Positions 41,264 to 64,000 of a stretch of 64,000 bases of DNA are shown piece by piece (position 1 is the stretch's first letter; each line of letters starts with the position of its first letter). The stretch comes from an uncultured Aquimarina sp. (lineage in GTDB: Bacteria > Bacteroidota > Bacteroidia > Flavobacteriales > Flavobacteriaceae), in the NCBI GenBank assembly GCA_947499005.1, contig CANMML010000002.1, forward strand, positions 1 to 64,000, in the 5' to 3' direction. The notes beneath the pieces are model-generated. The model had not been told where the DNA came from. It did not search any database and saw only the letters and a list, made by a program, of their open reading frames with translations. Position numbers and translations under genes: made by a program.

Positions 41264-41854
41264 TTGATATTTGAAACTTTACAAATCATAAGTGAAGAGG
41301 CAAATGCGTACCTTAAAAGTGTAGGAGGAACTCCAGATATCACTTTAAATAACGTAGCGACTCTAGACCAACCTGACAATGAAAATGGAGGTGGGGTCTC
41401 AAGTAACATTCTGTGTTCGCTTGTTAATATTCAAGAAGAATTTGCTTTAAAAAATAATATAAACCACCGTACGGTTAAAGACACGGTCGATTATAGAAAC
41501 CCTAAAGTATTTCTCAATTTATATGCCTTGTACTCCTTTACACATACTACCTATACAGAAGCATTAAAGGGTTTAAACCGTATTGTGCAATTTTATCAAG
41601 GTAAGAGGGTTTTTACCCAATCGAATACGAGTTTTAAAAGAGAAGTAGAGCTTAGTAATATTAGCAGTTTTAGATTTGTAGTAGACCTGTATACTCCTTC
41701 TTTTGAAGAGCTTAACTACATATGGGGAACACTAGGAGGAAAACAATATCCTTCTGTAATGTATAAGATATCAGTACTAGAGATCGAAAGAGATCATAGT
41801 CTTAGTAAGAGTGGTACTGTCGTTGGTTTAACAAGTGATCTAAATAATAATTAG
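41264..41854 (+). CDS. eCIS DUF4255 (Pvc16/Afp16-like) tube/sheath terminator
   Basis: 196 residues. The start is TTG at 41264 (read MIFETLQIISEEANAYLKSV): no in-frame ATG precedes the conserved N-terminus, and family members begin 'MI..TL..I..E.N.YL'. Features of DUF4255: VSSNILCSLVNIQEEFALKN, FLNLYALYSFTHTTYTEALK, then LNRIVQFYQGKRVF and FEELNYIWGTLGGKQYPSVM. In PVC/Afp particles this family caps the distal end of the tube and sheath and helps set tube termination. First gene of the operon; the next starts 2 bases after its stop. Confidence 0.88.
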   Translation: MIFETLQIISEEANAYLKSVGGTPDITLNNVATLDQPDNENGGGVSSNILCSLVNIQEEFALKNNINHRTVKDTVDYRNPKVFLNLYALYSFTHTTYTEALKGLNRIVQFYQGKRVFTQSNTSFKREVELSNISSFRFVVDLYTPSFEELNYIWGTLGGKQYPSVMYKISVLEIERDHSLSKSGTVVGLTSDLNNN

Positions 41855-41856
41855 TC

Positions 41857-42876
41857 ATGAGTTACAAGTCTCTTTTCGAAATACAGTTTTTTCATCACTA
41901 CTTTCTTGATCATGGACAGGCTGTCTTTGATGCCCAAAATCCATTAGTAAATAATGTTGGGTACAATGTGAAGCAGTTTTTAGAAATTATACCATTACCG
42001 AAGACGCAACTGTTATTTAAAAATCATCGCTATTTATTTAAGAAAACCTCTCTTGGTATTTCTATACTTACAAAAACGATCGAAGAAACTGTTAATAGAA
42101 ATGTAAGAGAAAAACCATTAATAACTCCTTCTTCAAAGGATAAAGCAGTTTTTGCAATTCGAGTAACAGATCCAATGTTTTATAATTATACGGATGTTAC
42201 TGAGCTTAACGAATTACAGCTATATCACTTTTCGAATGATGCTTTAGGAGCAGAGGGCAATATTTTTGATAATTCGGGAGCCAATGATGTTGATAATAAT
42301 TATTTGCTAAACGAATCTGATAGCCGCGATTTATTAGAAAATATAGCACCGCAAGAGACTGGGGCAAGTGCTTTTGATGTAGAGACAGCACTTGATTTAT
42401 TATCGGAAGACACTTCAATTCCAGATTTAGCTGTAGCGAAGCATACTTTTTTAAGCGGTGAAGTAAAAAGAAGGAGAAGACAAGGCATTATTGGATATAT
42501 CGTATTGAATTTTTCTAATAACCAAGTAGGTAATCGCATACTGGAATATGATAGTAAAGGACCTCGATACTTAACAGGGAATACACTATCATTTCAATTA
42601 ACTTTTCAAAGCAAGAAAACATTTTGGCGTTATCAAATGCTTAAAAAAGGGAATACTTATGCTTTAGAGACGCAATCTCAAAAGCAATTTTCCTTGAATG
42701 GATACACAGATATTGATTCGGAAGTAGACTTAGATGCCTCTAACCAATTACCCCAAAATGATCCAGATGCACCAACGGCAAATGAGCTATCAACATTTGT
42801 TTTTCCTAGTCCCAATCCGAAAGTATTGAAATACGAAAACAATAAAATTTATTCAGAAATATATATAACCATTTAA
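41857..42876 (+). CDS. Conserved eCIS-associated protein of unknown function
   Basis: 339 residues, no signal peptide. Between DUF4255 and sheath genes, so probably structural. Visible features: N-terminal LFEIQFFHHYFLDHGQAVFD, a basic patch KRRRRQ at about residue 204, beta-rich middle (GIIGYIVLNFSNNQVGNRIL, LSFQLTFQSKKTFWRYQMLK) and an acidic C-terminal third. I do not recognise a phage-tail homologue. In AlgoCIS-type loci unassigned genes near the terminator encode cap or cap-adaptor components; assigning this one to such a role would be inference. Confidence 0.65.
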   Translation: MSYKSLFEIQFFHHYFLDHGQAVFDAQNPLVNNVGYNVKQFLEIIPLPKTQLLFKNHRYLFKKTSLGISILTKTIEETVNRNVREKPLITPSSKDKAVFAIRVTDPMFYNYTDVTELNELQLYHFSNDALGAEGNIFDNSGANDVDNNYLLNESDSRDLLENIAPQETGASAFDVETALDLLSEDTSIPDLAVAKHTFLSGEVKRRRRQGIIGYIVLNFSNNQVGNRILEYDSKGPRYLTGNTLSFQLTFQSKKTFWRYQMLKKGNTYALETQSQKQFSLNGYTDIDSEVDLDASNQLPQNDPDAPTANELSTFVFPSPNPKVLKYENNKIYSEIYITI

Positions 42877-42898: not shown

Positions 42899-44842
42899 AT
42901 GGCATCATACAAAACACCAGGAGTTTACGTTGAGGAAATTGTAAAATTCCCTCCTTCGGTGGCGCAAGTTGAGACTGCGATACCAGCCTTTATTGGGTAC
43001 ACCGAAACGGCAAAAAAGAAAATCAAAGATGATCTAATCATGGAACCGGTTAGAATCACTTCTTTGTTAGAGTATGTGTCCTACTTTGGGCGTGCTCATC
43101 AAGAGACCACAATTAGTGTTGACATTTTAAATGCAGGTAAAGCAAGCGAAGAAATTATTGTTTCTCAGCCAAGTTCGCCGTCTCCATTTGGGATGTATTA
43201 CCATTTGCAAATGTACTTTGCTAATGGTGGAGGGCCTTGTTTCATCGTTTCGACAGGAACTTACGAAACCGCTTTAGCAAACAACAGCAGCGATCCAGTA
43301 ATATTACAGGAAGTTGGTGGTAATGGAGCAATGGGGCTTAATGATGGTTTAACAAAAATTAGAGCTGTAGATGAGGTGACATTAATTGTTTTTCCTGATG
43401 CGACTTCACTTCCAGCAGCAGGAGATTTTTATGGATTGTATAAAAATGCATTGATCCAATGTAAAGAATTACAAGACAGATTTACAATCATTGATACTTA
43501 CGAAAACTCACAAGCAGGTGTTGATGTATTAAGGAATAGTATCGATTTAGGGAAAAATTTCTTGAAATATGGTGCTGCTTATTATCCATATGTAGATACT
43601 ATTTTGGACTTCGCCTATGATGAAAGTACCGTAATCGTTAATGGTATTGATGGAGAAGACGTCGGAACCTTGGCTACAACAGTCAAAAATGGTATTGATG
43701 TAGATGTATTAGAAACGATCTTAACAGATGTCAAAACTTCAAAAGATGATATCGCGGGAGCAGCTAATAAAACTGCAGCAATAGCATTAAAAGGAACCGC
43801 TATTTTAAATGTAAATAAAGCTATTGATTATCTAAAAAATCAAGCAGCTGCACTAAACAATCTTATTGACAATGCGATAAAATTAAACGATACAGATACT
43901 ACTGTAGCGGCTAATGCTTTATCGGCTTGGGTTGATACAGACATAGAAGCTAAGATTTCAGATTTATTAGGCTTGGTATTCAAATTAGATCAAGATGATA
44001 CTAAAGCAAAGTTATCTGCTTCGATGACAGGTGTAGAAACCGCTTTAGGGTTAAATGCGACTATAACAGATTCAACGATTTATGTAAAATTGAATAAGTT
44101 AAAAACAGAACATGCAGATGAACCTCAACTGAAGGATTTAATTGCCGAATTGCCAGCAGGTTCAGCAAAACCTACGCTTGAAGATTTGAATGATGCTTCG
44201 CATTCTTCTTACCATAATGGACGTTATAACCAGATCAAAACAGAGATTGGTTTGATGCCTATAAAATTACCACCAAGTGCTACTATCGCCGGAGTATATG
44301 CTCGTGTCGATTCAGACCGAGGCGTTTGGAAAGCACCTGCAAATGTGGGCTTAAATTATGTAACAAAACCAACGATTCAAGTCACTCACGAAGAGCAGCA
44401 AAACTTTAATGTAGATACTGTTGCAGGAAAGTCGATAAATGTAATTCGCGCTTTTGTTGGAAAAGGAAACTTAGTTTGGGGAGCACGTACGTTAGCAGGA
44501 AACGATAACGAGTGGCGTTATGTATCGGTGCGTCGTTTCTTTAATATGGCAGAAGAATCAATTAAAAAAGCATCCGAGCAATTTGTTTTCGAACCTAATG
44601 ACCGTAATACATGGGTACGTGTAAAAGCGATGATTGATAACTTTTTGACATTGCAATGGCGAGCAGGAGCATTGGCAGGTCCAACACCAGAAAGTGCATT
44701 CTATGTAAAAGTAGGATTGGGAGAAACCATGACTGCTCAAGATATTTTAGAGGGAAATATGATTTTAGAAATTGGGATGGCGGTAGTTCGCCCAGCAGAA
44801 TTTATCATATTGAAGTTCTCTCATAAAATGCAGGAAGCATAA
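42899..44842 (+). CDS. eCIS contractile sheath protein with inserted domain
   Basis: 647 residues. Canonical sheath ends: N-terminal YKTPGVYVEEIVKFPPSVAQ and TAIPAFIGYTE, and C-terminal part with PPSATIAGVYARVDSDRGVW, APANVGLNYV, then VWGARTLAGNDNEWRYVSVR, RRFFNMAEESI, and NFLTLQWRAGALAGPTPESA. Between about residues 240 and 453 lies an extra, helix-rich, Ala/Asp/Leu-rich domain that breaks the usual core (typical eCIS sheaths are roughly 350-500 residues). It should project from the sheath surface. Forms the outer contractile cylinder. The gap to the first tube gene is 150 bases and holds an inverted repeat. Confidence 0.93.
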   Translation: MASYKTPGVYVEEIVKFPPSVAQVETAIPAFIGYTETAKKKIKDDLIMEPVRITSLLEYVSYFGRAHQETTISVDILNAGKASEEIIVSQPSSPSPFGMYYHLQMYFANGGGPCFIVSTGTYETALANNSSDPVILQEVGGNGAMGLNDGLTKIRAVDEVTLIVFPDATSLPAAGDFYGLYKNALIQCKELQDRFTIIDTYENSQAGVDVLRNSIDLGKNFLKYGAAYYPYVDTILDFAYDESTVIVNGIDGEDVGTLATTVKNGIDVDVLETILTDVKTSKDDIAGAANKTAAIALKGTAILNVNKAIDYLKNQAAALNNLIDNAIKLNDTDTTVAANALSAWVDTDIEAKISDLLGLVFKLDQDDTKAKLSASMTGVETALGLNATITDSTIYVKLNKLKTEHADEPQLKDLIAELPAGSAKPTLEDLNDASHSSYHNGRYNQIKTEIGLMPIKLPPSATIAGVYARVDSDRGVWKAPANVGLNYVTKPTIQVTHEEQQNFNVDTVAGKSINVIRAFVGKGNLVWGARTLAGNDNEWRYVSVRRFFNMAEESIKKASEQFVFEPNDRNTWVRVKAMIDNFLTLQWRAGALAGPTPESAFYVKVGLGETMTAQDILEGNMILEIGMAVVRPAEFIILKFSHKMQEA

Positions 44843-44992: not shown

Positions 44993-45436
44993 ATGTCAAC
45001 ATACGCATTACCAAAGTTTCACTTCCAAGTAATTTATGGGGGTGTCGAGTTCAATTGTACCGAAGTGTCAGGATTGGATTTTGAAACAGAGATTATAGAG
45101 TACCGTGCTGGTGCTGATAATGAGTACCACAAAACAAAACAACCAGGTCTTAAGAAATACAGTAACATCACTATCAAACGCGGAACATTTGCAGATAAAA
45201 GCAAACAGTTTTATGACGAGTGGGCAAAGACTGTATTTTTTCAAGAAGGAGGTGAAGAGTTTCGTGGAGATCTTACCATTAGCATGCTTGATGAAAGTCA
45301 TGAAGCGATCATTACTTGGAAAGCTACAAATGCTTTTGTTTCTAAACTTCAGTCAACCGATTTTAAGGCTGACGGGAATGAAATTGCTATTGAAACAGCA
45401 GAGTTTGTTCATGAAAAACTAGTGATTCAAGACTAA
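44993..45436 (+). CDS. eCIS tube protein 1 (gp19-like)
   Basis: 147 residues. T4-gp19/Hcp-like tube fold with FHFQVIYGGVEFNCTEVSGL, EIIEYRAGADNEYHKTKQPG, YSNITIKRGTFADKSKQFYD and the closing strand IAIETAEFVHEKLVIQD. Proteins of this group stack as hexamers to form the inner tube. In PVC/Afp particles most of the tube is one such protein; the first and best-matched copy here is the likely major tube subunit. No lumen-facing feature predicting cargo is readable. Confidence 0.9.
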   Translation: MSTYALPKFHFQVIYGGVEFNCTEVSGLDFETEIIEYRAGADNEYHKTKQPGLKKYSNITIKRGTFADKSKQFYDEWAKTVFFQEGGEEFRGDLTISMLDESHEAIITWKATNAFVSKLQSTDFKADGNEIAIETAEFVHEKLVIQD

Positions 45437-45457: not shown

Positions 45458-45943
45458 ATGGGTAAAGGAGATGCCAATTATTACCCTCCAGTAGCTTTCC
45501 ACTTTGCGGTGTATTTTAATACAGGTAGTGGAGAAGAGAGCAATAGCGAGCTGCATTTTCAATCGGTTTCTGGGTTGTCAGTCGATCTAGAAACCGAAGA
45601 AATTGCAGAAGGAGGGGAAAATAGATTTAAACATAAGATTCCAGTACGCACCAAGTATCCAAACTTGGTGCTAAAGAGAGGTATGGTAATGGATTCGAAC
45701 ATCATAGAGTGGTGTAAAGAAGCCATATTTAATGCCAATTACTCTCCTGTAGATCTTACGATTCATCTATTAGATATACCAAAACCAGACGACCCAGAGA
45801 ATAAAAACTCACGAACACTTAGAAGTTGGAATGTTGTACATGCATATCCTGTAAAATGGTCGGTAGCCGACTTCAACGCAGAGGAGAGCAAAGTACTTAT
45901 CGAAACCTTAGAATTGACCTATAACTATTTCACAGTAAGCTAA
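45458..45943 (+). CDS. eCIS tube protein 2 (gp19-like, likely tube initiator)
   Basis: 161 residues, distant paralogue of the preceding gene. YYPPVAFHFAVYFNTG, ELHFQSVSGLSVDLETEEIA, KYPNLVLKRGMVMDSNIIEW and the final strand KVLIETLELTYNYFTVS retain the gp19 pattern. The extra length lies in an insertion with DIPKPDDPENKNSR. In related systems the second gp19-type gene forms the ring joining tube and baseplate. The stop codon overlaps the next start (TAATG). Confidence 0.88.
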   Translation: MGKGDANYYPPVAFHFAVYFNTGSGEESNSELHFQSVSGLSVDLETEEIAEGGENRFKHKIPVRTKYPNLVLKRGMVMDSNIIEWCKEAIFNANYSPVDLTIHLLDIPKPDDPENKNSRTLRSWNVVHAYPVKWSVADFNAEESKVLIETLELTYNYFTVS

Positions 45944-46101
45944 TGCCGATAGAGATTAAAGAGCTTCATATTAAGATTAATGTCACAGAAAAAGCAGACA
46001 GTAATGCAGCGCCGCCTAATAAAAGAGAAACGGAGCAAAATACTACTGCCGATACGATAGAAGCTGTCATGAGTTTGTTAAATCAGAAAAAGGAGAGATG
46101 A
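45943..46101 (+). CDS. DUF5908 small eCIS protein
   Basis: 52 residues, too short for ordinary ORF calling. ATG at 45943 shares one base with the preceding stop. The sequence begins MPIEIKELHIKINV, exactly the N-terminal signature of DUF5908, whose members occur only in CIS operons between tube and LysM genes. The rest is a hydrophilic linker and a final short helix (IEAVMSLLNQKKER). Role not established; possibly a baseplate or tube-assembly peptide. Confidence 0.85.
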   Translation: MPIEIKELHIKINVTEKADSNAAPPNKRETEQNTTADTIEAVMSLLNQKKER

Positions 46102-46187
46102 TTTGGCAACGAGTTCCCAGCTTCTAGCGACGAGCAATCAATCGTTGTGTAATAGAAATTACCAAAGGAGTGTTAGACGTAAATAAA

Positions 46188-46262
46188 TAATCAGACTGCT
46201 TGCAGTCGTAAAAAGCTGATAGCTCGTGGCTGATAGCCCGAAGCTTTTGGCGAGGCCAAAAA
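46188..46262 (+). promoter_or_regulatory. Two-hairpin leader, copy A (before the LysM gene)
   Basis: Hairpin 1: GACTG (46194-46198), loop CTTG, CAGTC (46203-46207). Hairpin 2: TTTTGGC (46245-46251), loop GAG, GCCAAAA (46255-46261), ending one base before the ATG at 46263. Between them lies an AGCTGATAGC-type spacer. Copies B and C precede the next two genes. Hairpin 1 differs from theirs by a compensated A-T for G-C pair. Confidence 0.65.
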
Positions 46263-47036
46263 ATGAGTACCGAAAGTTTTCAAAAATTAGAAATACGCTG
46301 TTATAGCAAAGACACTTTTGCAGAATCCGATGAATTAAAGGATTTGAAGTATACCGCATTGCTAAATCCTGATAAGTATTCCCAAACATGGAAGACGGAA
46401 TATATCACTAAAAAAGCAGCGGGAAGTAGTGGTGATGACCCAGGATTTAAAGCTTCAATTCCATCCGAATTGAGTTTAGAATTTCTATTCGATCGTACAG
46501 GAGTTATCCCGCATTTTGGGAAGGACAAGCATTATAATAAAATGAAGACTGAGGGAAAACTCAGTGATAAAAACAAAGCTAAAGGAGACAAATTCTACGC
46601 AGATATTGACGATAAAGGTATTGAAGAAGATCTTAAGAATTTCAAAGCAGCAGTTTTCGATTATGACGGACAATCGCATAAGCCCAATTATCTAAAAGTA
46701 ATTTGGGGGCATTTGGTATTCGACGGAATTTTAACGGATTTGACGTTCGAGTATAAAATGTTCAAACCCAATGGAAGTCCATTGCGAGCAATCGCTAAAG
46801 TGAAGTTCATTTCTTATGTAGAAGCTGAAAAACGAGCTAAGGAAGAAGATAAAAAATCTCCAGATTTAACCCACTTAAGGACTGTTAAAGCAGGAGATAC
46901 TTTAAGCCTAATGACACATAAGATTTACGGAGATCCTAAATATTATCTAGAAGTAGCGAAAGTCAACAACCTAACCAATTTTAGAAAACTAACTCCTGGG
47001 CAAGAATTGATTTTTCCGCCTTTGTCTAAGACGTAA
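46263..47036 (+). CDS. eCIS LysM/CIS-tube adaptor protein (Afp7/gp53-like)
   Basis: 257 residues. The N-terminal ~190 residues are the CIS tube-adaptor domain, with KYTALLNPDKYSQTWKTEYI, PSELSLEFLFDRTGVIP and YLKVIWGHLVFDGILTDLTF. The C-terminus (about 205-255) is a LysM domain: HLRTVKAGDTLSLMTHKIYG, YYLEVAKVNNLTNFRKLTPG, QELIFPPL. It connects the spike hub to the tube and baseplate. Preceded directly by leader copy A. Confidence 0.9.
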   Translation: MSTESFQKLEIRCYSKDTFAESDELKDLKYTALLNPDKYSQTWKTEYITKKAAGSSGDDPGFKASIPSELSLEFLFDRTGVIPHFGKDKHYNKMKTEGKLSDKNKAKGDKFYADIDDKGIEEDLKNFKAAVFDYDGQSHKPNYLKVIWGHLVFDGILTDLTFEYKMFKPNGSPLRAIAKVKFISYVEAEKRAKEEDKKSPDLTHLRTVKAGDTLSLMTHKIYGDPKYYLEVAKVNNLTNFRKLTPGQELIFPPLSKT

Positions 47037-47130
47037 GTCTTAGGCTACGAGCAGCGAGCTACCAGCTTCGAGCTCTTAAAATGACTCTGTGAGCCATTTT
47101 ATTTCAGGTTTTCAGGTTTGAATGAATTAA

Positions 47131-47206
47131 AATAAGGCTGCTTGCAGCCACAAAAAAGCTGATAGCTGGAGGCTAGTTGCCCGAAGCTTTTGGCAAAGCC
47201 AAAAAA
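47131..47206 (+). promoter_or_regulatory. Two-hairpin leader, copy B (before the VgrG gene)
   Basis: Hairpin 1: GGCTG (47136-47140), loop CTTG, CAGCC (47145-47149). Hairpin 2: TTTTGGC (47188-47194), loop AAA, GCCAAAA (47198-47204), two bases before the ATG at 47207. The loop sequence differs from copies A and C while the stem is unchanged. Confidence 0.65.
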
Positions 47207-48955
47207 ATGAGTAACAATTCTGGAGTAATAGAAACATCACAAAGTGCCGATTTGGTAACCTATAAAGTACTTTCCGAAGGAGAGGAACTTTCGGGGGTAT
47301 ATCAAATAAAAGGAATTAGTGTGCGCCAAGAGGCAAATCGTATTCCAACGGCAACAATCATTGTATCTGATGGTGATGTAGCTACGCAGGATTTTGGATT
47401 GAGTAATGAAGCTTTTTTTCAACCAGGCAAGGAGATAGAGATTACAGCAGGCTATCATTCGGATGAAGAAACCATATTTAAGGGAATTGTCATCAAACAC
47501 AGTCTTAAGATTCGAAGCAACGCGTTGAATCTTATCGTAGAATGTAAAGACAAAGCCGTCAAAATGACCGTAGGTTGTAAAAGTAAATACTATTACGATA
47601 GTAAGGATAGTGACATTTTTGAAGAATTAATAGGAGCTGCAGGACTAGAAAAAGACGTAGAAGCTACTAATACAGAGCATCCGTCTTTGGTACAATACAA
47701 TGCCACCGATTGGGATTTCATGTTATCAAGAGCTCAAGCCAATGGGAAATTGTGTTTTACCGAAAATGGCAAAGTCACTATTGCAGCTCCTAATTTAGAT
47801 CAAGAAGAAGTAGAGACCATTGCTTTTGGGGCGACAATGTTAGATTTTGATGCAGAAATTGATGCACGCCATCAAGTATCAAAAGTATCGTCTTATTCCT
47901 GGAATGCAGCAGATCAAGAACTCTTAGAAATTGAAGGAAGCGATCCTTCGGTAAGTCTTAATGGAAATCTAAGTGCAGGAGACCTTAATAGTGTTATTGG
48001 CTTAGACAATATGGAATTACGTCATGGAGGTAATATCCCTGATAGTGTGTTACAGGATTGGGCCGATTCCAAATGGTTATTTCAACAATTAGCAAAAGTA
48101 CGAGGTCGTGTCAAGTTTCAAGGAATTCCGGGAGTAAAACCCAATACAATTCTCAATCTAGAAGGAGTTGGAGATCGCTTTAATGGAAAAGTATATGTGT
48201 CGGCGGTTCAGCATTTATTAACCGAAGGTGCTTGGACATTAGATGTGCAATTTGGGATTAATCCAGAATGGTTTTCCGAAACTTTTGAGATTCATACTCC
48301 CGATGCATCGGGGTTACTACCTGCGATTAAAGGACTGCATATTGGTATTGTTTCTCAATTGGAAGAAGATCCAGATGGAGAAGATCGAATACTGGTACAA
48401 ATACCAATCATCAATCACGAAGAACAAGGTATTTGGTGCCGAGTAGCTTCATTAGATGCTGGTGAGAATAGAGGTTTTTTCTTTAGACCAGAAATTGAAG
48501 ATGAGGTTATTGTAGGATTTATTAATGATGATCCTAATGAAGCAGTAGTCTTGGGGATGTTGCACAGTAGTGCAAAACCTGCTCCGATTACAGCGGCTGA
48601 TGACAACCACGAAAAAGGATTGGTTACTAGAAGCGAGATGAAAGTCTTATTCGATGATGATAAAAAAATAATGACGCTTTCTACCCCAGCAGGAAAACAA
48701 ATTGTAATGGATGAAGATGCAGGAACCATAGTCATAGAAGATGAAAACTCAAATGTTGTGACGATGGATAGTAGTGGAATCGTTATGGAAAGCGCCGGAA
48801 ATATAGAGATAAAAGCCAGTGGGGATGTAGCGATTGAGGGGACTAATATAGAGCTAAAAGCAAATGCTGAATTTAAAGCAGAAGGTTCGGCAGGAGCAGA
48901 AGTTTCTACCAGTGCTATAGCTGTATTGAAAGGTTCGTTGGTGCAGATTAATTAG
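47207..48955 (+). CDS. eCIS VgrG-like spike hub protein
   Basis: 582 residues from the ATG at 47207 (MSNNSGVIETSQSADLVTYK). An earlier TTG start would run through the leader hairpin and adds ten residues with no family counterpart. gp27-like hub domain at about 1-340 (SGVYQIKGISVRQEANRIPT, YHSDEETIFKGIVIKHSLKI, WDFMLSRAQANGKLCF). gp5-like OB fold at about 375-460: LHIGIVSQLEEDPDGEDRIL, VQIPIINHEEQGIWCRVASL, FRPEIEDEVIVGFINDDPNE. The C-terminal beta-prism repeats follow (NIEIKASGDVAIEGTNIELK). No effector extension after the prism. It forms the trimeric spike on which the PAAR tip sits. Confidence 0.94.
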   Translation: MSNNSGVIETSQSADLVTYKVLSEGEELSGVYQIKGISVRQEANRIPTATIIVSDGDVATQDFGLSNEAFFQPGKEIEITAGYHSDEETIFKGIVIKHSLKIRSNALNLIVECKDKAVKMTVGCKSKYYYDSKDSDIFEELIGAAGLEKDVEATNTEHPSLVQYNATDWDFMLSRAQANGKLCFTENGKVTIAAPNLDQEEVETIAFGATMLDFDAEIDARHQVSKVSSYSWNAADQELLEIEGSDPSVSLNGNLSAGDLNSVIGLDNMELRHGGNIPDSVLQDWADSKWLFQQLAKVRGRVKFQGIPGVKPNTILNLEGVGDRFNGKVYVSAVQHLLTEGAWTLDVQFGINPEWFSETFEIHTPDASGLLPAIKGLHIGIVSQLEEDPDGEDRILVQIPIINHEEQGIWCRVASLDAGENRGFFFRPEIEDEVIVGFINDDPNEAVVLGMLHSSAKPAPITAADDNHEKGLVTRSEMKVLFDDDKKIMTLSTPAGKQIVMDEDAGTIVIEDENSNVVTMDSSGIVMESAGNIEIKASGDVAIEGTNIELKANAEFKAEGSAGAEVSTSAIAVLKGSLVQIN

Positions 48956-49073: not shown

Positions 49074-49092
49074 TATTAAAGAATAATAAAAA

Positions 49093-49172: not shown

Positions 49173-49466
49173 ATGGGACAACCAGCCGCAAGAATAAATG
49201 ATATGCATGTTTGCCCAATGCAAAACCCAGGGCCTGTACCTCATGTAGGAGGACCAATATTACCTGCTGGAGAGCCAACGGTATTAATTGGTGGAATGCC
49301 TGCTGCAAGAGTCGGTGATATGGCCGTATGTACAGGTCCACCAGATAGTATTGTTGCAGGATCAGGGACGGTATTAATTGGTGGAATGCCTGCCGCTCGC
49401 ATGGGAGATAGTACGGCACATGGAGGTACCATTGTCGCTGGAGAACCAACAGTTTTAATAGGATAG
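49173..49466 (+). CDS. eCIS PAAR-repeat spike tip protein
   Basis: 97 residues from the ATG at 49173 (MGQPAARINDMHVCPMQNPG). A PAAR protein with VPHVGGPILPAGEPTVLIGG, MPAARVGDMAVCTGPPDSIV and a second PTVLIGG/MPAARMGDSTAH unit. His and Cys residues in the loops (HVC, VPH, AVC, AHGG) are candidate metal ligands that hold the cone together. It sharpens the VgrG trimer. Single domain, no toxin fused. The next gene starts directly after the stop. Confidence 0.93.
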   Translation: MGQPAARINDMHVCPMQNPGPVPHVGGPILPAGEPTVLIGGMPAARVGDMAVCTGPPDSIVAGSGTVLIGGMPAARMGDSTAHGGTIVAGEPTVLIG

Positions 49467-49880
49467 ATGTTTAAAGAAAAGTCATTTTTAGGAAGAGGTT
49501 GGGCTTTTCCTCCTGAATTTGTTAGGGGGCAAAAAGCAACTGTGATGGTGTCTGAGGAAGAAGATATCAAGCAAAGTCTACATATTTTACTGACTACTCG
49601 TCTAGGAGAACGAGTAATGTTACCTAATTATGGGTGCAACTTAGATGAATTACTTTTCGAAGATCTTTCTCGATCATTGATTAGTTATACGGTTGATTTA
49701 TTGAAAACAGCCATCATCTATCACGAACCTAGAATTAAAGTGATTAGCATCGATATTAATGAAACTGATCCTTTAGAAGGAAAATTGATTATACGAATAG
49801 ATTATTTCATAAAAACAACAAATTCAAGATCGAATGTAGTATTCCCTTTCTATAAAGAAGAAGGAACCGACATTAAATGA
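49467..49880 (+). CDS. eCIS baseplate wedge protein, gp25/GPW family
   Basis: 137 residues. gp25 signature: LGRGWAFPPEF near the N-terminus, EEDIKQSLHILLTTRLGERV, MLPNYGCNLDELLFED and a final beta segment LIIRIDYFIKTTNSRSNVVF. gp25-type proteins nucleate sheath assembly at the baseplate. Starts with no gap after PAAR and ends 8 bases before the next gene. Confidence 0.95.
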   Translation: MFKEKSFLGRGWAFPPEFVRGQKATVMVSEEEDIKQSLHILLTTRLGERVMLPNYGCNLDELLFEDLSRSLISYTVDLLKTAIIYHEPRIKVISIDINETDPLEGKLIIRIDYFIKTTNSRSNVVFPFYKEEGTDIK

Positions 49881-49888
49881 AGTGAACT

Positions 49889-56300: not shown

Positions 56301-56526
56301 TGATCTTAAGGAATTTGAAATTGCTTATAAAGCTTATTTAGAAGCTAAGACTCAAGAGACCTTAATGGGGCAACAACAACCCTCAGAAGCATTGCAGGCA
56401 TTAATCGATGCGATGCAGCAATTGAATACGATTTATCCACAAGGGCGTTTACTGGATTGCGATGATGATTCGGATGCCTTAGATGGTAAAATAATACTAG
56501 GACGAACCAATATAGGAACCCTTTAA
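53311..56526 (+). CDS. eCIS second large baseplate protein (Afp12 position)
   Basis: 1071 residues. The N-terminal LWTDYNSHDPGITMLEVLCY, AISDLGMRI is the same motif found at the start of gp6/baseplate-J-type wedge proteins; the rest is alpha/beta without a named domain. The C-terminal ~200 residues (about 865-1045) form a long charged helical region (LKTELEELDPTAFNSEIEAE, IEQEFIVKEKAIATG) likely coiled coil. Overlaps the preceding gene by 10 bases, implying coupled translation, and fits the wedge heterodimer seen in related particles. Confidence 0.82.
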   Translation: MSVVNEHISISKEIATKDDLDFAYLRARGIEYIEAFAGNLWTDYNSHDPGITMLEVLCYAISDLGMRISMPIENLLASPELGKGLTGQFYKPEQVFPTEPVTALDYRSLFIDIKGVRNCWLRTYDHTVHVDFLNDRLSYNEFAFTSVPTEQKDEYLFKGLYKLLVDFEAFDENYTDEQIAKAKEELIDKIWEKYHAHRNLCEDLITIEEVKAECISVCTNIEVHPEADEEWVKAKIIREINRYLSTDIKRYTIKQLLDRGYTTDEIFEGPLLENGFIDPAELIEAELRKEVRLSDIIQIIMNIEGVKLIKEISISQCKKTKDGSDEKQTLVSTTEDSKSNAWFICLPDDCKPQLCKKSVMNFFKDVLPLNINEKRVERYLDEIKEDEELAAIIDDEDKQLPYPRSQYVSPSEYTTIQNDFPDTYGIGVHGLVTRVTEKRRIQAKQLQGYLLFFDQILASYFKQLSKVRELFALDTNLSKTYFTQVVEDIRNVDLLFDDYEDQPEEVLTELLFEELDNNIDRRNEVLDHLLARFAERFSEYTFLMKGLFGSATEEIILQNKEQFLKDYEEVSKEKGKAFNYYQQVDKNKKPINLWETKNVSGFQKRAARLLGIKDFKRRSLSSSFIDIYNYKSDSGQQVFRWRIKDHNGNIVLSSSDDYASIHAASEELHFAVFQIIQTSERDIEIGLAKNDFEEKIIGNLRIQKSPTGKFSFDVINPEANPNGVDYVVAMRFNFISDIVTFRKMVLQTIQFMKFTFSEEGIFLVEHMVLRPDITQPNNEPFLPICTDKGKDSCSIDPYSFRVSVIIPGYTYRFANPDFRNYMEEVIRRELPAHILPKICWVGHRDGNLENENQEFIIRAERDRNKAIETLKTELEELDPTAFNSEIEAEIASAEIFTQIAQAKLNTENTIVSYLTTLAIEEVGVSSEDQQQLDKLVDERTSIEQEFIVKEKAIATGDLSPEKLQLELLKLQEKFYLKRTEKQQEIKDFLSPLAIKKNDLKEFEIAYKAYLEAKTQETLMGQQQPSEALQALIDAMQQLNTIYPQGRLLDCDDDSDALDGKIILGRTNIGTL

Positions 56527-56539: not shown

Positions 56540-59500
56540 ATGAGCACAAAGTTAACCAATATTACTAACCAGTACAGCAAGTTTAGTGATAACCAAGTGC
56601 TAACAAAAGCACAGCTTAATCAGTTTTTAGATTATTTCGATGATCAAGATCGACTTTCGCGTATCGGACTTAGTGGTGTCGGTATCGTTTGTGGATTTGA
56701 AATTAAATGGGGCAATCCAAATGCCTCTAAAGACTTTATTACTTTTAGAAATGCAGAGGTCGTAACTAAAATAGACGCAGAAACAGACGGTTCTACAGAA
56801 GAGGTTTCTCTATTAAGGAAAAACCAAACGGGACAATATGTGGAAGTTAGTCAGGGTATTGCTGTTACTACTGATGGAGATTTGTTGAAATTTACGCGAC
56901 CTATTTCGGATAATAGCGATTTTAGAGAATTATTGTCTAAGGGAGTTAAGAAGAAGTTTACACACTATAGAGAATATGATAATAACGATGCTAGTTACCC
57001 TCCTTTCTACAACAATAAGGTACAAGTTGACCTTCTAGAATTGGCGGAAGCTTCGGAGGTGGGTAATGATAATCGTTACAAACCGCTTTCGGAAATTGAT
57101 ATTTCTAAAAAAGTAGTTTTCTTGTATTTGGAGAGCTATACCAAAAAAGGAGATTTGTGTACTGCCTTGGATTGTGATAGTCAAGGACAAGCTCAAGTTC
57201 GACAATTGAAAATGCTTCTATTGGATAATGATATTGCCCAGAGTATTGCACAAAACGATATCATCTATAATAAGCATAATTGGTATCTGTTTTTAGCTTC
57301 TGTAGCTCCTTTGAAAGGCAAGCGTGATATTATTACTTTTTTAGATTCGCAAGCAACAGATCTAGACGAAATAAAAAGCATTTATCTAAAGCTGATTGCC
57401 GATGAAAACTTGAAAGATAAACTGCGATTAGGGATTAATAAGGTTTTTGAAAAGTTTGGAAAACTAGAAATAAGTGCGCAACTTTTTGCCAATCTTTGGC
57501 CTTCAGATATTACAAAAGTAAGTGGAGACTTCCAGTATCGTTATGATTTCCTTAAAGATGTTATAGCAACCTATACTGAGATTAGAGGTTTGTTATTAAA
57601 AATAAATGTAGAATGCTGCCCTTTGATCAATGCTTTTCCAAAGCATATTATGTTGGGTTATGTGACAGATGAAGTTTCTGATGTCGAATTACGTCATCGT
57701 TTTTATGCGTCACCCATAGTTGGTCAACAAGAAGTATTGCTGAAAGAGTTAAATAGTCTTATTGAGCGACTTTATGATCAATTAACCAATTACCAAGCAT
57801 TGTCTTCAGATGCGGTTTTAAAAATTACTCCTTCTAAAACTCAAACAGCATTGGGTGAGAAGGCAATACCTGCCTATTATAAGGTGACCAATAATTCATT
57901 GATTGATCATTGGAATTATGAATTAACACAGCAGTTTGCTGCTAGTACAAATATTGGATATTATAATAATGATATTCCTAATAATACTTCTTTGGAATAC
58001 TGTTTCGAAGAATATGATTTTTTACGCATTGAAGGAGTACAAGGTAAAGTCTATACAAGAGCTTTAGAGAGTTTACAAACGTTGAAAAGTCAATATGGAC
58101 TCAATTTCGATATTAAAGTATTAAGCCTTGCGACTCAGGATACGGAAATCAATATCAATGACTATGATTGCGAATTTAGAGACCTCCGTATGCTATTGCA
58201 AGCTTGGCAGAGCGAACAAAATTGTGCTCTAAAAGCAGCTTCCGAATTATTGTCGGGGTTTACCACCAATACAGCAGGAGGTAACGTTTCGAGTACAGGA
58301 AATACAATTGCAGCCAATTCTGGAGCAACCTCTGCAACCTCTGCTACAGATAATCAACTTTCAGCAGAGGATGGTAGTAGCGACGTAGCTTCTTCAAATG
58401 ATAATAATGCTCCTTTCGATAAAGAATTAGCCAATGCTTTTAATGTGTTGGAAAGAGCAGGATTGGTGCAATCTAAAGGAGATGGTTCAACGGTTTCAAC
58501 TACGAAAGATGTTCCTAGTGATAGAGAAATTAAAAAAGCTCAAGAGGTAATAAAAGAAACATTAGGTGTAGAAGCCTTGGAAGGGGGTAATGTTAGTAAA
58601 CTAGGGGCTTTAGCAGGACAAAAAGTTGCAGTCGACGTAGGAAAAGGAATACCCTTGGCAAAAGGAGGTTTTGGAGGGAAGGTTTCGATACCCGTTTTTT
58701 CTGGTAAGACAACTAAAGAGCAAGTAGAAGAGAGTATCGTAACGGAGGATAATACATTGGGGCAAATTTTGGATGAATTTATCCAAGTGAACCCAGTTGC
58801 TTCTCCTGTAGAAATTGCGGCAGGAGTTGATGCTCAATTACAGCCCATTTTTGCTACTCCGGCTTGGCAAGGAAAAGAAGATGTACGAGAAGTACTAGAG
58901 GTGTCGGTAGATATTCTTGCGAATATTTACGATTATACTCGAATCGTTCCAGAAACTTTATTGGAGTTAGATCCTATAAAACTTGCAGCGATCAATACCT
59001 CGTTAGAAAATGTATGCGGTCTTGTAGATACATTGAAAGAAAAATATGATACAGCTGATCTTCAACCTCAATTGAAAAATGATATTAGCATTTTGATCAA
59101 TCAGCTTGCAGGAGTGTGTTGTTCGGGAGAGAAATTAGAATTACTGATCGCTGAAATTAATGGACGTAAGGCTAAAGTATTAGAGAATACGGTATTCAGA
59201 AATTTCGTAACCAAACATCCTGGAGTACGTCATCGAGCGGGGGTTCCTATTGGAGGAACATTTATTATGGTCTATCAATCAGAAAGTACTTTTGATGAAG
59301 ACATTATAGAGCCAATTACGTTAAGAATTCCATTTAAAAGTATCCCTAGACATAAAGACCAAGCACAGTTAGTTTTTATTAATCCAAAATTAAGTTCGAG
59401 TATTACCTTTTTATCAGGAAAAATAGGAATCGATGATCGATTCGATGGATTATTTGGGAATTCGAAAATTCCGGTAGATGATAAGCGTACTATTTTAGAT

Positions 59501-61693
59501 GGTTTTGCCATTGAAGATAAAGAAAAAGAGGCCTTCGAATTGGAAGCTATTGATCCAGGAAAAGCCAGATTTTTAGGTTTAGGAGAATCACCAAAATTTC
59601 TAGTAGAACAGCGTATAGATATTGTTGATGATTTAGAAGAAATGGTCGCGCAGATTGCTCGTTTATGGAATAACAACTGGGCTATAGCAGGAGCTTCAAA
59701 ATTTTTAAATGCTATAGCTAAAGGCACAGATATTTTTATTCAAGTACAAGACATAGCTCTTGAAAAGAAAGCAAATTACTTCCAAGTGTCAAACCCTAAT
59801 ATTATAGGGTCAAAAACGGGTCGCATTGATTTTGATGTAAATAAAGTCATCCCAGCAAATCCAACACCAAGTAATACCGTAGTTGCAGATTTTGCACTCC
59901 CTTATATCTGTTGTTCAGACTGTGCGCCCGTTAATTTTGTATTACCAAGAGAAGAGGTAAGTTTAGCAGTCAATAAACCCCAAATTTGTTTGACTTTAGA
60001 TGATGGGGTATTCCCAATCGCCAATTTTACAGTACAGCCAAAAAAGGGTGAAGTAAAAGCGCTAGTACCTGCTAATATAGTAGAACAAGGAGGTAGCGGA
60101 GTTGTCAAAAATGGAGAGGTGTATGAATTCGATACCGCTACGTTAGATCCTAGTTTATATGGTCGCCCAATTCGCTTTACGGTAAATGATCAGTCTACTT
60201 CGGCGAGTGTAACTGTTTACGAAGCGTTGGATGTGCAAGTATCGATTAAAGACCCTATAGATTATAATGATAAGAAAACAATAGCGCTAGTTACCTTCGA
60301 GGTGACAGGGAATTATAATGCCAATACTAAGTTTATTTGGAACTTTGGTAATGAAAAAGGAGAAGACAAACCCGTCAATAATATTGTAACTCAACGTTAT
60401 GAATTGCAACCAAGAGAGGGGGATGAAAATCCAAATATCTTCCAACCAACATTACAAGTAGCTAATGGCCCGTGTGCTTATCCTGTAACCATACCCGAAC
60501 TTATTTTAGATGAACCAATTCCAGAAGCAAGTTTAACGCTTGGTGCAGTACCGTGTGTTGATCCTAATGATGGCGAAGAAAAAGTGAGTGTTGAAATTGT
60601 TGAAGTACAACCACCAAATGCTACTATTGAGATAAGAACGGTCGATAAAGTAGTTCCTGTAGGGATTCATTTAGCAGGTGATAATTCTGAAATAGTGATT
60701 AATAAAGAATTATTTAGCCTTTATGATACCGATCTCTACTTCTGGGTTGATGGCACTTCATTGAATTCACCAGTATTGGTAATTCCTAATAAAAATAAAA
60801 TAGCCGAATTTGTAGCGAGTAAGTCTATAATTCGCATTCTACCAGGACAACCTGTTTCTGTAGATTTCTTAATTACAAATCTAACTGGTAGGCAAAAAGC
60901 TAGTGGAGATTATAGTTTCCTATGGGATTTTGGAGATGGTAAAACAAGTGAAGAAGTTTTACTAAGTAAAAACTTCGATACCATCCATGATTATAATACA
61001 GAAAAATTAGAAGAAGGAGAACATTCATTTACGGTGTCTTTAATCGTAAAAGGAGGCCCTTGTGAAGAAGCAGTGTATACGGAAACAATTACCATTATTG
61101 TTCAACAGAAACCAGGCAAGCTTTTAGAATGTATTCCAGAGTCTCAAGCATTAATTCAGACGACTCATGACGAAATAAAAAAGAAAACGGAAGAGGGTGA
61201 CGAAGTAAAGACTTTGGTTATAAATCCAACATTAGACCTTTACAAGAAATTAGATCAGCGAGATAATAAGAAAGATTACATCACTTATTTTGAAGGAGAA
61301 CAGAATGGAGCAGTCTTATCGATTTTCTTAGGAGACGAGTTTTTAACTTCAAATAAAGAGGGCTTATTAGACATCACGTTTAATTTGATTATTGACAGGA
61401 ATAAGGAAGGAAAACCTTTTGATGATCTTCGCAAATTTTACCTAGCTCAATTACAAGCTTTTTTCTTGGTGGTACGTTGCCAACGAGAGGATATATATGT
61501 AGAATTTGAAGAAATTATTTTACAAATTGTAGATAAAATAATAGCTCATTTAAAAGAATTCAACTTAAATGAAATTGCGATAGATGAAAAGCAGATTCTG
61601 AAAAAATTCTTTACAATTTATCTAAAATCGGATAGGCTTAACGCCACTTTGAAAAAGAAAATTGCCAACGAAATTATGACACTTTTTTCATAG
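56540..61693 (+). CDS. Giant PKD-domain eCIS-associated protein
   Basis: 1717 residues, no signal peptide. Conserved N-terminal block (about 1-60): SDNQVLTKAQLNQFLDYFDD, RLSRIGLSGVGIVCGFEIKW. A low-complexity Thr/Ser/Asn/Ala linker at about 575-630 separates it from a mixed middle region. Two PKD-type beta-sandwiches near the C-terminus: one at about 1235-1320 (KFIWNFGNEKGE), one at about 1435-1530 (DYSFLWDFGDGKTSEE, HDYNTEKLEEGEHSFTVSLI). A helical C-terminus follows (FKEFNLNEIAIDEKQILKKF type). Located between baseplate and tape-measure genes, so likely part of the particle. PKD domains usually mediate binding, so a fibre, shell or receptor-binding role is possible; not shown. Confidence 0.72.
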   Translation: MSTKLTNITNQYSKFSDNQVLTKAQLNQFLDYFDDQDRLSRIGLSGVGIVCGFEIKWGNPNASKDFITFRNAEVVTKIDAETDGSTEEVSLLRKNQTGQYVEVSQGIAVTTDGDLLKFTRPISDNSDFRELLSKGVKKKFTHYREYDNNDASYPPFYNNKVQVDLLELAEASEVGNDNRYKPLSEIDISKKVVFLYLESYTKKGDLCTALDCDSQGQAQVRQLKMLLLDNDIAQSIAQNDIIYNKHNWYLFLASVAPLKGKRDIITFLDSQATDLDEIKSIYLKLIADENLKDKLRLGINKVFEKFGKLEISAQLFANLWPSDITKVSGDFQYRYDFLKDVIATYTEIRGLLLKINVECCPLINAFPKHIMLGYVTDEVSDVELRHRFYASPIVGQQEVLLKELNSLIERLYDQLTNYQALSSDAVLKITPSKTQTALGEKAIPAYYKVTNNSLIDHWNYELTQQFAASTNIGYYNNDIPNNTSLEYCFEEYDFLRIEGVQGKVYTRALESLQTLKSQYGLNFDIKVLSLATQDTEININDYDCEFRDLRMLLQAWQSEQNCALKAASELLSGFTTNTAGGNVSSTGNTIAANSGATSATSATDNQLSAEDGSSDVASSNDNNAPFDKELANAFNVLERAGLVQSKGDGSTVSTTKDVPSDREIKKAQEVIKETLGVEALEGGNVSKLGALAGQKVAVDVGKGIPLAKGGFGGKVSIPVFSGKTTKEQVEESIVTEDNTLGQILDEFIQVNPVASPVEIAAGVDAQLQPIFATPAWQGKEDVREVLEVSVDILANIYDYTRIVPETLLELDPIKLAAINTSLENVCGLVDTLKEKYDTADLQPQLKNDISILINQLAGVCCSGEKLELLIAEINGRKAKVLENTVFRNFVTKHPGVRHRAGVPIGGTFIMVYQSESTFDEDIIEPITLRIPFKSIPRHKDQAQLVFINPKLSSSITFLSGKIGIDDRFDGLFGNSKIPVDDKRTILDGFAIEDKEKEAFELEAIDPGKARFLGLGESPKFLVEQRIDIVDDLEEMVAQIARLWNNNWAIAGASKFLNAIAKGTDIFIQVQDIALEKKANYFQVSNPNIIGSKTGRIDFDVNKVIPANPTPSNTVVADFALPYICCSDCAPVNFVLPREEVSLAVNKPQICLTLDDGVFPIANFTVQPKKGEVKALVPANIVEQGGSGVVKNGEVYEFDTATLDPSLYGRPIRFTVNDQSTSASVTVYEALDVQVSIKDPIDYNDKKTIALVTFEVTGNYNANTKFIWNFGNEKGEDKPVNNIVTQRYELQPREGDENPNIFQPTLQVANGPCAYPVTIPELILDEPIPEASLTLGAVPCVDPNDGEEKVSVEIVEVQPPNATIEIRTVDKVVPVGIHLAGDNSEIVINKELFSLYDTDLYFWVDGTSLNSPVLVIPNKNKIAEFVASKSIIRILPGQPVSVDFLITNLTGRQKASGDYSFLWDFGDGKTSEEVLLSKNFDTIHDYNTEKLEEGEHSFTVSLIVKGGPCEEAVYTETITIIVQQKPGKLLECIPESQALIQTTHDEIKKKTEEGDEVKTLVINPTLDLYKKLDQRDNKKDYITYFEGEQNGAVLSIFLGDEFLTSNKEGLLDITFNLIIDRNKEGKPFDDLRKFYLAQLQAFFLVVRCQREDIYVEFEEIILQIVDKIIAHLKEFNLNEIAIDEKQILKKFFTIYLKSDRLNATLKKKIANEIMTLFS

Positions 61694-61698
61694 GATAG

Positions 61699-64000
61699 AT
61701 GATTGAAGCACCTGCACATATCATTCATAGTTTGAAATTGGATATCGATACACGATCCAATGAAATCGCCCATCGATTGAAGGGAGAGGTGAGTGATTTT
61801 GTGAATAATGAACTTCAAGAATATCTAGAATCACTATTTACCGATTTAACAAATGATGAGTATCAATCTGTAATTAAAATAGAACAATTAATAATACCCG
61901 TTGAAACCTCAATAGAAGAATTAAAGTCGGTATTAAAAGAGGAAATAGGCAAGGAAATCAAGAATTGCGTCGAGAGGCCTTCGGCAAATGGGGGTGTACA
62001 TAAACAAACCCGTTCGCAAAGTGATGTAGCAGCTTTTTGGGAAGTGGTAGAAAAAGGGACATTGCCATGGTGGAAAGGCGCAAGTAATGGAATATCATTT
62101 TCTGAAGCGTCTTGGTTGAAGTTGATTTCCGAGCCAGCTTTTCAGATAGGTTTTAGTCAACGAATTGAAGATGCTTTTTTTAGAAAACAATTAGTACAGC
62201 AATGTACCAGTAGTGAGTTGCTGGATTTGGTAGATCAATTAGCCGTAATAAAAGCGCTTTTCAATTCACTATCAAGTGATATAAAACAACGAATCGAAAA
62301 GCTAAAAGGCATTGATAAAACGGTGTTTTGGTATTTTCTTTTAGAAGAATATATCCATAATAGGTTGGCGCAGTTTACTACAAATTATATGGGACTGGTA
62401 TTTGCCATAAAATCTGAAATATCGATTCAGCATCCGTTATTTAACTTAGGCTTATTGATTGCAGAAGAGGTTATAGCCCATCGTCCCAAAGATATAACTG
62501 GTATTGAGCATTTGATTTTAGGACAGTTTTCAAAGACTGAATTATTTACAGCCAAAGAAATTCAAGATTTAAATACGGTAAATAATAAAGCTAGTTCTTG
62601 GTTACTTGAAATTCATGAAAAGTTTCATAGAGCACACCATAAAGCATCTTACAATACAATTCATAAAGCTTTTCAAGGAATATCTCAAGAAACATCTGAG
62701 GCGACATCTGAAAAAAGTAAAAATACGTTAGATCATGACTTAACAAAAGCAGCATCTTCAGTATCAGAAATGGACAAGTTGTTAGTATCTAAGCATAATG
62801 AAGGGACACCATTTGAAAATAAAGAAGTAGGAGAAACTTCCAATTCAACACCCTATTTTTTAGATAGTAAAGCCCAAGAACAATCTTCTAAAGAAGAAAG
62901 CCTATTGGGAAATAATGAATCTAAATCTACCGAAAGTGAAATCAATGTTACTAAAAGTGTTGAGGTTTTAGTTTCTGGAACGGCGATTGATGCAATATCT
63001 GAACAAGAGAAAGACGAAGCATCTTTAAAAAATGAAGTCAGTAAAAATGCTTCAATTACAGAAACAAGTTCATTGTCTAAGAAAGACAAGGAAAAATCCT
63101 CGAAATCAAAAGAAGTATTTGTAAAAGAATCGTTTAACTCTAGTGAGGCTGCAACTAATTCTGATGAAGATATTTCTAAATGGACCTCCAGCAAAAATAT
63201 AGAAGCTGACAAAATAGCTGCAAAAGAAACTGAAGATAAAGCATCCTCAAATACAGTTAAAAAAACAGAAATCGGGGCTTTAGGTGATCAATCTAATGTG
63301 GCTACCGATCAAGTATTCAGTGAGCCTAAAGAAACGAAAGAGGATAACGAAAAGGAGTCAAAAGTTGACCAGGAAGCTATAGTAGCTCAAGAAACTATTG
63401 TGTTGCATAAGGGGGAAATTTCGGATCAGCACTTAGATGTAATTTCCAATAAAAATAAAGTAGCGAAAGACGAAATCGGATTCAAACAAGAAGTGGGTGA
63501 ATCGAATGTTTCTGAAGACGGAAAAAACAAAGACAATCAAAAGAAGTCTTTACTTCAAAATACAAATGCTAGAGTTTCCCAAGAGCACGTCGAAGAGAAT
63601 GATATAGCAAGACGTTATCGAGAGTATAAAAAACAACTTGCTGAAGGGTTTAGCAATATTGATCATCAAATTATAGAAACACCATTGAAAGAAGAAGATC
63701 AACAAGCTATTTTATCCAATGCAGGGTTAATATTGATTCATCCATACATAAAAATATTTTTTGATAATTGTGGTTTTTACGATAACGACTCGAAGGAAAT
63801 TGTAGAAAAATCAAAAGCAGTACATGCGCTACATTACATCGCAACGAAGACTGACTGCGATTGGAATGCAAACGTATCATTTGAAAAATTTTTATGTGGA
63901 ATTCCCTTAAATGTTTCAATCCCTAGAGAGGTCGAATTAGATGAAGAGGTAAAAAAACAGTCAGAAGAATTACTTAAGGCCGTTATAGAAAATTGGCCAG
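61699..64000 (+). CDS. Contractile injection system tape measure protein (3' end beyond window)
   Basis: At least 767 codons, open to the window end, ATG at 61699, five bases after the previous stop. N-terminal MIEAPAHIIHSLKLDIDTRS and the motif FWEVVEKGTLPWWKG (about 113-127) are the CIS tape-measure signature. About residues 315-630 form a disordered Ser/Glu/Lys/Asn-rich spacer (ESKSTESEINVTKSVEVLVS type). After it comes the conserved distal block ILSNAGLILIHPYIKIFFDN, VHALHYIATKTDCDW and KFLCGIPLNVSIP (from about 670). It sets tube length in the particle. The rest of the gene is outside the window. Confidence 0.9.
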   Translation, partial: MIEAPAHIIHSLKLDIDTRSNEIAHRLKGEVSDFVNNELQEYLESLFTDLTNDEYQSVIKIEQLIIPVETSIEELKSVLKEEIGKEIKNCVERPSANGGVHKQTRSQSDVAAFWEVVEKGTLPWWKGASNGISFSEASWLKLISEPAFQIGFSQRIEDAFFRKQLVQQCTSSELLDLVDQLAVIKALFNSLSSDIKQRIEKLKGIDKTVFWYFLLEEYIHNRLAQFTTNYMGLVFAIKSEISIQHPLFNLGLLIAEEVIAHRPKDITGIEHLILGQFSKTELFTAKEIQDLNTVNNKASSWLLEIHEKFHRAHHKASYNTIHKAFQGISQETSEATSEKSKNTLDHDLTKAASSVSEMDKLLVSKHNEGTPFENKEVGETSNSTPYFLDSKAQEQSSKEESLLGNNESKSTESEINVTKSVEVLVSGTAIDAISEQEKDEASLKNEVSKNASITETSSLSKKDKEKSSKSKEVFVKESFNSSEAATNSDEDISKWTSSKNIEADKIAAKETEDKASSNTVKKTEIGALGDQSNVATDQVFSEPKETKEDNEKESKVDQEAIVAQETIVLHKGEISDQHLDVISNKNKVAKDEIGFKQEVGESNVSEDGKNKDNQKKSLLQNTNARVSQEHVEENDIARRYREYKKQLAEGFSNIDHQIIETPLKEEDQQAILSNAGLILIHPYIKIFFDNCGFYDNDSKEIVEKSKAVHALHYIATKTDCDWNANVSFEKFLCGIPLNVSIPREVELDEEVKKQSEELLKAVIENWP

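Follow-up and report, generated by a model that had tools for sequence, protein, structure and literature searches.

Among extracellular contractile injection systems (eCISs), the closest described relative of the locus reported here is AlgoCIS of Algoriphagus machipongonensis (PMC8894135, PMC13314943). AlgoCIS carries two DUF4157 cargos that fill its tube (PMC8894135), and it binds and fires on a bacterium, binding to Echinicola pacifica through Alg19, a trimeric fibre whose shoulder is TssK-like (PMC13314943). Geller et al. 2021 described eCIS toxins active against bacteria and the earliest toxin-immunity pairs of eCISs; they also noted that most eCIS toxins have no nearby immunity gene and called this an intriguing mystery (PMC8213781). 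Downstream immunity genes for BaCT, and BaCT domains fused to DUF4157, were reported by Jana et al. 2020 (PMC7073777). The stretch analysed, referred to as the window, is the 64,000 nucleotides at bases 1-64000 of the 237,769-base contig CANMML010000002.1 from an uncultured Aquimarina sp. (assembly GCA_947499005.1; genome 4.16 Mb, 98.8% complete). It holds the left part of an operon that spans 41264 (TTG start) to 77264 on the + strand, with 14 genes starting within the window and 10 beyond it; coordinates above 64000 are contig coordinates, continuous with those of the window.

The comparison supports assignment of this locus, known here from its genes alone, to the AlgoCIS-type eCISs. An AAA ATPase, a tape measure and DUF4157 cargo all lie within the operon. 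Sequence searches of the Protein Data Bank (PDB) with nine structural proteins gave an AlgoCIS protein as the best match for eight of them: cap, cap adaptor, sheath, LysM initiator, spike, the Alg11 and Alg12 wedges and the Alg19 fibre. The ninth, the tape measure, has no PDB match by sequence; the tubes, PAAR, gp25 and ATPase were assigned through Pfam. The likeness extends to the single long sheath and the two DUF4157 cargos. Compared with AlgoCIS, the fibre (1717 vs 1443 amino acids, aa) and Alg12 (1071 vs 933 aa) are longer, additional genes lie between and behind the cargos, and repeats precede three genes. The machine itself is of a kind already known and calls for no new explanation. 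Taken as a whole, it is likely that the operon encodes an AlgoCIS-type eCIS with toxin cargos and antidotes encoded downstream of them.

The cargo reading draws on a first set of 46 loci, made up of 38 ATPase-adjacent regions and eight loci in hand, the window's included. Such loci are usually ordered as fibre, tape measure, short cargo, long cargo, variable small gene or genes, often a peptidoglycan hydrolase, and ATPase. Eighty cargos were recognised in 42 of the 46 loci, the stretch read containing none in G075, G077, G010 and G079; two cargos with fewer than 100 aa behind the DUF4157 core were left out, which gives 78 with at least 100. Long cargo-slot proteins with no recognisable DUF4157 core (for instance in G061, G063, G065, G092 and G010) were not counted. 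The tip was defined as the last 150 aa of each cargo and compared with the genes directly 3' of it, up to the next conserved gene. For the 47 cargos with such a candidate gene, downstream genes are homologous in 28 of 28 same-tip pairs (17/17 between genera) and in 15 of 1038 different-tip pairs (11/828 between genera), and in 2000 label shuffles the between-genus value was never reached. Long cargos that share a linker and differ in the tip have homologous downstream genes in only 3 of 120 pairs.

The same rules were applied to a repeat set of 33 regions from two wider genome searches. Same-tip agreement was 17/17 between new and old cargos and 2/2 among new ones, against 7/1017 and 1/225 respectively for different tips. 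G336, G829 and G792 (repeats of first-set loci), L183 (too short), G561 (partial) and L162 were left out, and L179 and L180 took the place of L158 and L159. As E-values depend on set size, the first different-tip count moves from 15 to 14 of 1038 in the enlarged set. By family, directly matching pairs agree in all 16 tip families with at least two bearers. Relatedness does not explain the co-variation, because it holds where ATPases are less than 60% identical (12/12 same-tip vs 4/1184 different-tip pairs); tip identity correlates with downstream-gene identity (Spearman 0.71, 47 non-independent pairs), the value for ATPase against downstream gene being 0.46. Only 2 of 23 long-cargo same-tip pairs also share the short-cargo tip, therefore the two slots are exchanged separately. 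In total there are 81 tip families among 128 cargos, each cargo with a conserved front and a variable C-terminal tip, and a downstream candidate adjoins 69 of the 128 (22/62 short and 47/66 long).

Pfam families found in the tips (E up to 0.01; 66 of 78 scanned, the other 12 belonging to families already represented) are Endonuclea_NS_2 (18), PG_binding_1 (8), PG_binding_3 (5), OmpA (4) and HHH_3 (2), with one each of RNAse_A_bac, Tox-REase-7, NAD1, APOBEC_N, Peptidase_M48 and BRCT; these families overlap. Of 61 downstream genes 47 were scanned, the other 14 being mostly of families already represented, with a few simply not included. Among the 25 most frequent of 44 Pfam families, TPR families occur in at most 4 of the 47, SMI1_KNR4 (SUKH) in two and ankyrin repeats in one; among the 25 most frequent of 53 NCBIfam families, an LcrH/SycD-type chaperone model is present in 3/47. 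In polymorphic toxin systems, SUKH and ankyrin proteins are established kinds of immunity protein.

The same machine could alternatively act on eukaryotes (protists, algae or invertebrates), with the downstream genes serving as tip-specific chaperones or loading factors and not as antidotes. The TPR proteins and the LcrH/SycD-type model fit such a role, as does the pair of genes at 74096-75687 in this operon, which in 3/3 loci tracks the linker type and not the tip, as a loader would; four earlier eCISs also mediate interactions with invertebrate hosts (PMC8213781). The downstream genes, however, follow the last 150 aa and not the linker, the tips include peptidoglycan-binding domains and a CdiA-type RNase, the first cargo of this operon has a predicted VgrG2b-like fold, and the AlgoCIS particle itself fires on a bacterium, so that this explanation appears unlikely. 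Antidote-like genes adjoining exchangeable cargo suggest a syringe aimed at other bacteria.

In this operon the cargo module lies beyond the window's end. A first-pass annotation of the window had predicted that the ATPase and the effectors would be found to the right, and extension along the contig located both:

64208-66439, + strand: cargo 1, 743 aa, eCIS_core (DUF4157; PF13699 E 1.1e-33)
66426-66905, + strand: lipoprotein-like gene, candidate immunity gene, 14-nucleotide (nt) overlap with cargo 1
66907-67650, + strand: membrane protein with two hydrophobic segments, of a kind that often follows the short cargo
67658-68227, + strand: protein with one hydrophobic segment
68241-73034, + strand: cargo 2, 1597 aa, eCIS_core (DUF4157; PF13699 E 1.4e-29)
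73031-74083, + strand: propeller-like protein (sub-cut-off PF13360 E 0.00029), 4-nt overlap with cargo 2
74096-74695 and 74695-75687, + strand: two paralogous genes
75692-75910, + strand: 72-aa open reading frame (ORF) with two transmembrane (TM) segments
75924-77264, + strand: AAA+ ATPase (PF00004 E 1.5e-27)

The C-terminal domain of cargo 1 is predicted to adopt a VgrG2b-like metallopeptidase fold with an HExxH motif, at 15% identity over the aligned part; only the VgrG2b row of the VIA-align comparison of the model was interpreted, and the absence of other matches shows nothing. The predicted fold, the motif and the envelope-type protein encoded directly 3' resemble the VgrG2b/Tpe1 effectors with their immunity proteins PA0261/Tpi1 (PMC6899460). 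Those metallopeptidases are fused to a VgrG spike, whereas the domain here is preceded by DUF4157 and a long helical part rich in W. Within this operon a tip-specific downstream gene was found for cargo 1 only. The C-terminal part of cargo 2 is common to three other proteins (only candidates with most words in common were scored) up to a CxxC stretch or slightly past it, after which the tips differ. The two paralogous genes at 74096-75687 occur in the three loci with the cargo 2 linker type and in 0/76 other loci, and therefore look like accessories of the linker; they were rejected as tip-specific immunity genes, as they recur with different tips on the same linker. The 72-aa two-TM ORF was considered as a holin and rejected, because in a metagenomic relative a segment like it is part of one protein with a 74695-75687 homologue.

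By analogy with AlgoCIS, the particle would be assembled in the cytoplasm with the two DUF4157 cargo proteins loaded into the tube, and after release would bind a bacterial surface through its Alg19-type fibres and fire. Both cargos would be polymorphic toxins, each with a conserved front end followed by an exchangeable C-terminal domain, and the producer would be protected by the small genes directly 3' of the cargo. Cargo 1 would most likely act as a VgrG2b-like metallopeptidase in the target periplasm and be neutralised by the 66426-66905 lipoprotein, and cargo 2 is probably a nuclease, with the 73031-74083 gene as its antidote.

Several observations weigh against this account. No downstream candidate adjoins 40/62 short and 19/66 long cargos; of 26 multi-member tip families 15 always have a candidate, nine never do and two vary; and the candidate is present in just one member of five same-tip pairs (in a further 22 it is present in neither). 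Part of the cargo thus has no adjoining antidote gene, and such cargos may do the producer no harm or have other targets. Co-transfer of neighbours as one DNA block could also yield the co-variation without any functional tie. In this operon the 66426-66905 lipoprotein has only weak similarity to its counterparts (E about 1e-6 in a small set). The cargo 2 tip is a singleton in which a YDLTI...LEFKS stretch resembles, by eye, the familiar PD-(D/E)xK motif pattern, and its one weak Pfam match was taken as chance, so that no family backs the nuclease reading. In AlgoCIS, the toxicity of Cgo1 is independent of its metalloprotease motifs, and no bacterium tested with the particles proved sensitive (PMC8894135).

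The structural genes precede the cargo module in the following order:

41264..41854, + strand: cap protein (Alg16A / tail terminator, DUF4255), TTG start, PF14065 E 5.7e-28
41857..42876, + strand: cap adaptor (Alg16B), best PDB match 7adz_1A, E 1.2e-10, residues 2-129
42899..44842, + strand: single sheath protein (Alg2), best PDB match 7adz_2A, E 6.3e-181, residues 1-646
44993..45436, + strand: inner tube, probably Alg1-type gp19, PF06841 E 3.2e-35
45458..45943, + strand: second tube protein, probably Alg5-type gp19, PF06841 E 1.7e-37
45943..46101, + strand: DUF5908-like ORF of 52 aa, plug candidate (Alg6), from translation and position
46263..47036, + strand: tube initiator with LysM domain (Alg7), PF19266 E 1e-44, 7aeb_M E 9.5e-65
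47207..48955, + strand: VgrG-like spike (Alg8), 7aef_q E 5.4e-247, ATG 47207 favoured over TTG 47177
49173..49466, + strand: PAAR spike tip (Alg10), ATG start, PF05488 E 1.5e-29
49467..49880, + strand: gp25 sheath initiator (Alg9), PF04965 E 2.8e-23
49889..53320, + strand: baseplate wedge (Alg11; forms the spike cage in AlgoCIS), 7aeb_G E 7.4e-219, three stretches
53311..56526, + strand: baseplate wedge (Alg12), 7aeb_A E 2.6e-272
56540..61693, + strand: tail fibre (Alg19), 1717 aa, 9wt0_a E 2.2e-132, four stretches between residues 1 and 1680
61699..64194, beyond the window end, + strand: tape measure (CIS_TMP), PF19268 E 3e-79 over the whole gene

The best PDB match of the cap is the AlgoCIS cap 7adz_0A (E 3.4e-49, aligned from residue 1). 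Gene order suggests which tube gene is Alg1 and which Alg5. The likeness of the 52-aa ORF to Alg6 is positional, with homologues in the matching position in 8/8 relatives compared. The first-pass annotation had counted 14 same-strand genes in 41264-64000 with gaps mostly under 25 bases. The open-frame list agrees, the 52-aa ORF included, and nine of 13 junctions are at most 22 nt or overlapping; the remaining four measure 150, 161, 170 and 217 nt (with ATG starts 46263, 47207 and 49173), and three of these hold a repeat. Of the families that it named, Pfam recovered Pvc16_N (DUF4255), sheath, two gp19 tubes, CIS_tube, Phage_base_V, PAAR, gp25, Baseplate_J and tape measure. Its PKD giant is present as a large gene, but over most of the length the product aligns with the trimeric receptor-binding fibre Alg19; a single-sequence model of the fibre N-terminus (mean pLDDT confidence score 31.8) was not used.

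The repeat is about 85 nt long with two small hairpins and lies at 46182-46262, 47124-47206 and 49088-49172, ending 0-2 nt 5' of the ATG of three consecutive genes (LysM, VgrG and PAAR); the corresponding gaps in the relatives read do not exceed 48 nt. Searching the genome with a single copy gave one other long copy (47131-47206) and, on a different contig, a 29-nt piece; the search is not exhaustive, as the 46182 copy was not recovered.

Placement in the AlgoCIS lineage, also proposed at first pass, holds on the best matches to solved AlgoCIS proteins; the absence of TssJLM, offered as an argument, does not tell against anchored relatives. IcmF/TssM (PF06761) was not found in the 98.8% complete genome by a search that was positive in an E. 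coli control and did not cover TssJ, TssL or the Bacteroidota-type core, and by sequence the TssM/IcmF membrane core of type VI secretion systems (T6SS) i-iii thus appears to be absent. T6SSiv and the thylakoid-anchored contractile injection system (tCIS), anchored relatives of eCISs, are likewise not known to have TssJLM. The absence of such genes is therefore no proof of an extracellular mode, and better evidence for the lineage comes from the fibre, which is of Alg19 type, and from the best matches being AlgoCIS proteins. A membrane-anchored system of T6SSiv or tCIS type, with the membrane proteins at 66907-68227 as a possible anchor, would explain why membrane proteins lie within the operon. 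It would also fit the tCIS of Anabaena (PDB 7b5h, 7b5i) being the next relative outside AlgoCIS for all eight proteins with PDB matches, with a like cap, adaptor, sheath, initiator, wedges and spike and a distant fibre/crown relative. The tCIS scores are nonetheless below those of AlgoCIS for all eight, thylakoid anchoring is inapplicable here, the fibre is far nearer Alg19 (E 2.2e-132) than All3314 (E 4.5e-31), the membrane gene at 66907 is missing from most related loci (present in 14/46 and 1/33), and the PF06761 search of the genome gave no TssM-type gene. Anchoring is thus rather improbable, a little more so than a eukaryotic target.

Another point in favour of anchoring concerns release. 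A peptidoglycan-hydrolase-type gene lies 5' of the ATPase in 39 of the 78 loci with an ATPase, within 263 nt in 35 of them, and none was found here: the window's genome has no match to the CHAP example, and none to PF11860, for which no control was positive, so that its absence is unproven. Sorted by best match to one example per type, the slot (e.g. L025:9644-10462, L029:2734-3576) holds 22 CHAP-like genes and 16 N-acetylmuramidases, with both in one locus; the CHAP example has PG_binding_1 above the Pfam cut-off and CHAP just below it (24.7 vs 26 bits), and the muramidase example is unambiguous. That enzymes of two catalytic types share a slot points to a common task such as release, and a lysis cassette has been described for Afp (PMC12961389). 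In six loci a 152-162-aa multi-TM protein is encoded between the tape measure and cargo 1 (e.g. L120:12310-12768, L133:6224-6712); all six also have the hydrolase-type gene, and the protein is possibly a holin-like partner. Short cargos of Dokdonia (L130:18303-19511, L135:16978-19092) carry a peptidoglycan-binding domain behind DUF4157, therefore cell-wall targeting occurs as cargo too.

The tail-like genes could also derive from a prophage tail that has degenerated or been domesticated. However, the frames of the structural genes are open, the set of AlgoCIS type is there and the operon is retained across many species, and, in keeping with the earlier view that this is no prophage, Pfam found no phage capsid, portal or terminase in the four left flanking genes (cytochrome-, YceI-, DUF5777- and GAF-like) or the five right ones (carbohydrate-binding, radical-SAM, methyltransferase, regulator and sulfatase). 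The one portal match, below cut-off (E 0.0058), is inside the operon on ORF 74695-75687. A prophage origin is accordingly very improbable.

Alg12 was used as the query for wider searches because a tape-measure scan of the genome-contig collection gave no match. It has a relative in 29 of 56 related genomes, many of which by score belong to other contractile injection system lineages, and in 256 stretches of the collection, of which 80 were kept. This genome has a second, different contractile injection operon (G000:C11, L022-L023, about 0.4-33.5 kb), in which BLAST finds no Alg19-like gene and the ATPase is followed by four eCIS_core genes. In three Aquimarina loci (L028-L033) a single giant cargo precedes the tape measure, and there are two genes for Alg19-like fibres.

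A toxin with downstream immunity was, as a pattern, foreseen by Geller et al. 2021 and Jana et al. 2020. The Bacteroidetes polymorphic toxins (TANFOR/BaCT, with BaCTic immunity; PMC7073777) likewise have an exchangeable C-terminal toxin and a downstream immunity gene, but the carrier studied there is TANFOR, in contrast to the AlgoCIS-type cargo with its two slots here. A limited literature search found no account of systematic co-variation of tip and downstream gene in AlgoCIS-type loci. We lean slightly towards the broader view that the AlgoCIS-type particles of Bacteroidota serve mainly against bacteria, that their two toxin slots are exchanged independently, with many toxins bringing their own antidote gene, and that antidote-keeping sorts the cargos. 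Antidote retention is nearly fixed per cargo family (24/26 uniform) and, if this view is true, would separate cargos aimed at bacteria from those that are not, which would largely resolve the missing-immunity puzzle of eCISs for the AlgoCIS-type lineage. The co-variation bears on the natural target of AlgoCIS: the 16 tip/downstream-gene families are candidate toxin-antidote pairs and point to bacteria as targets, and cargo 1 with its lipoprotein-like gene would bring a VgrG2b-like fold into eCIS cargo.

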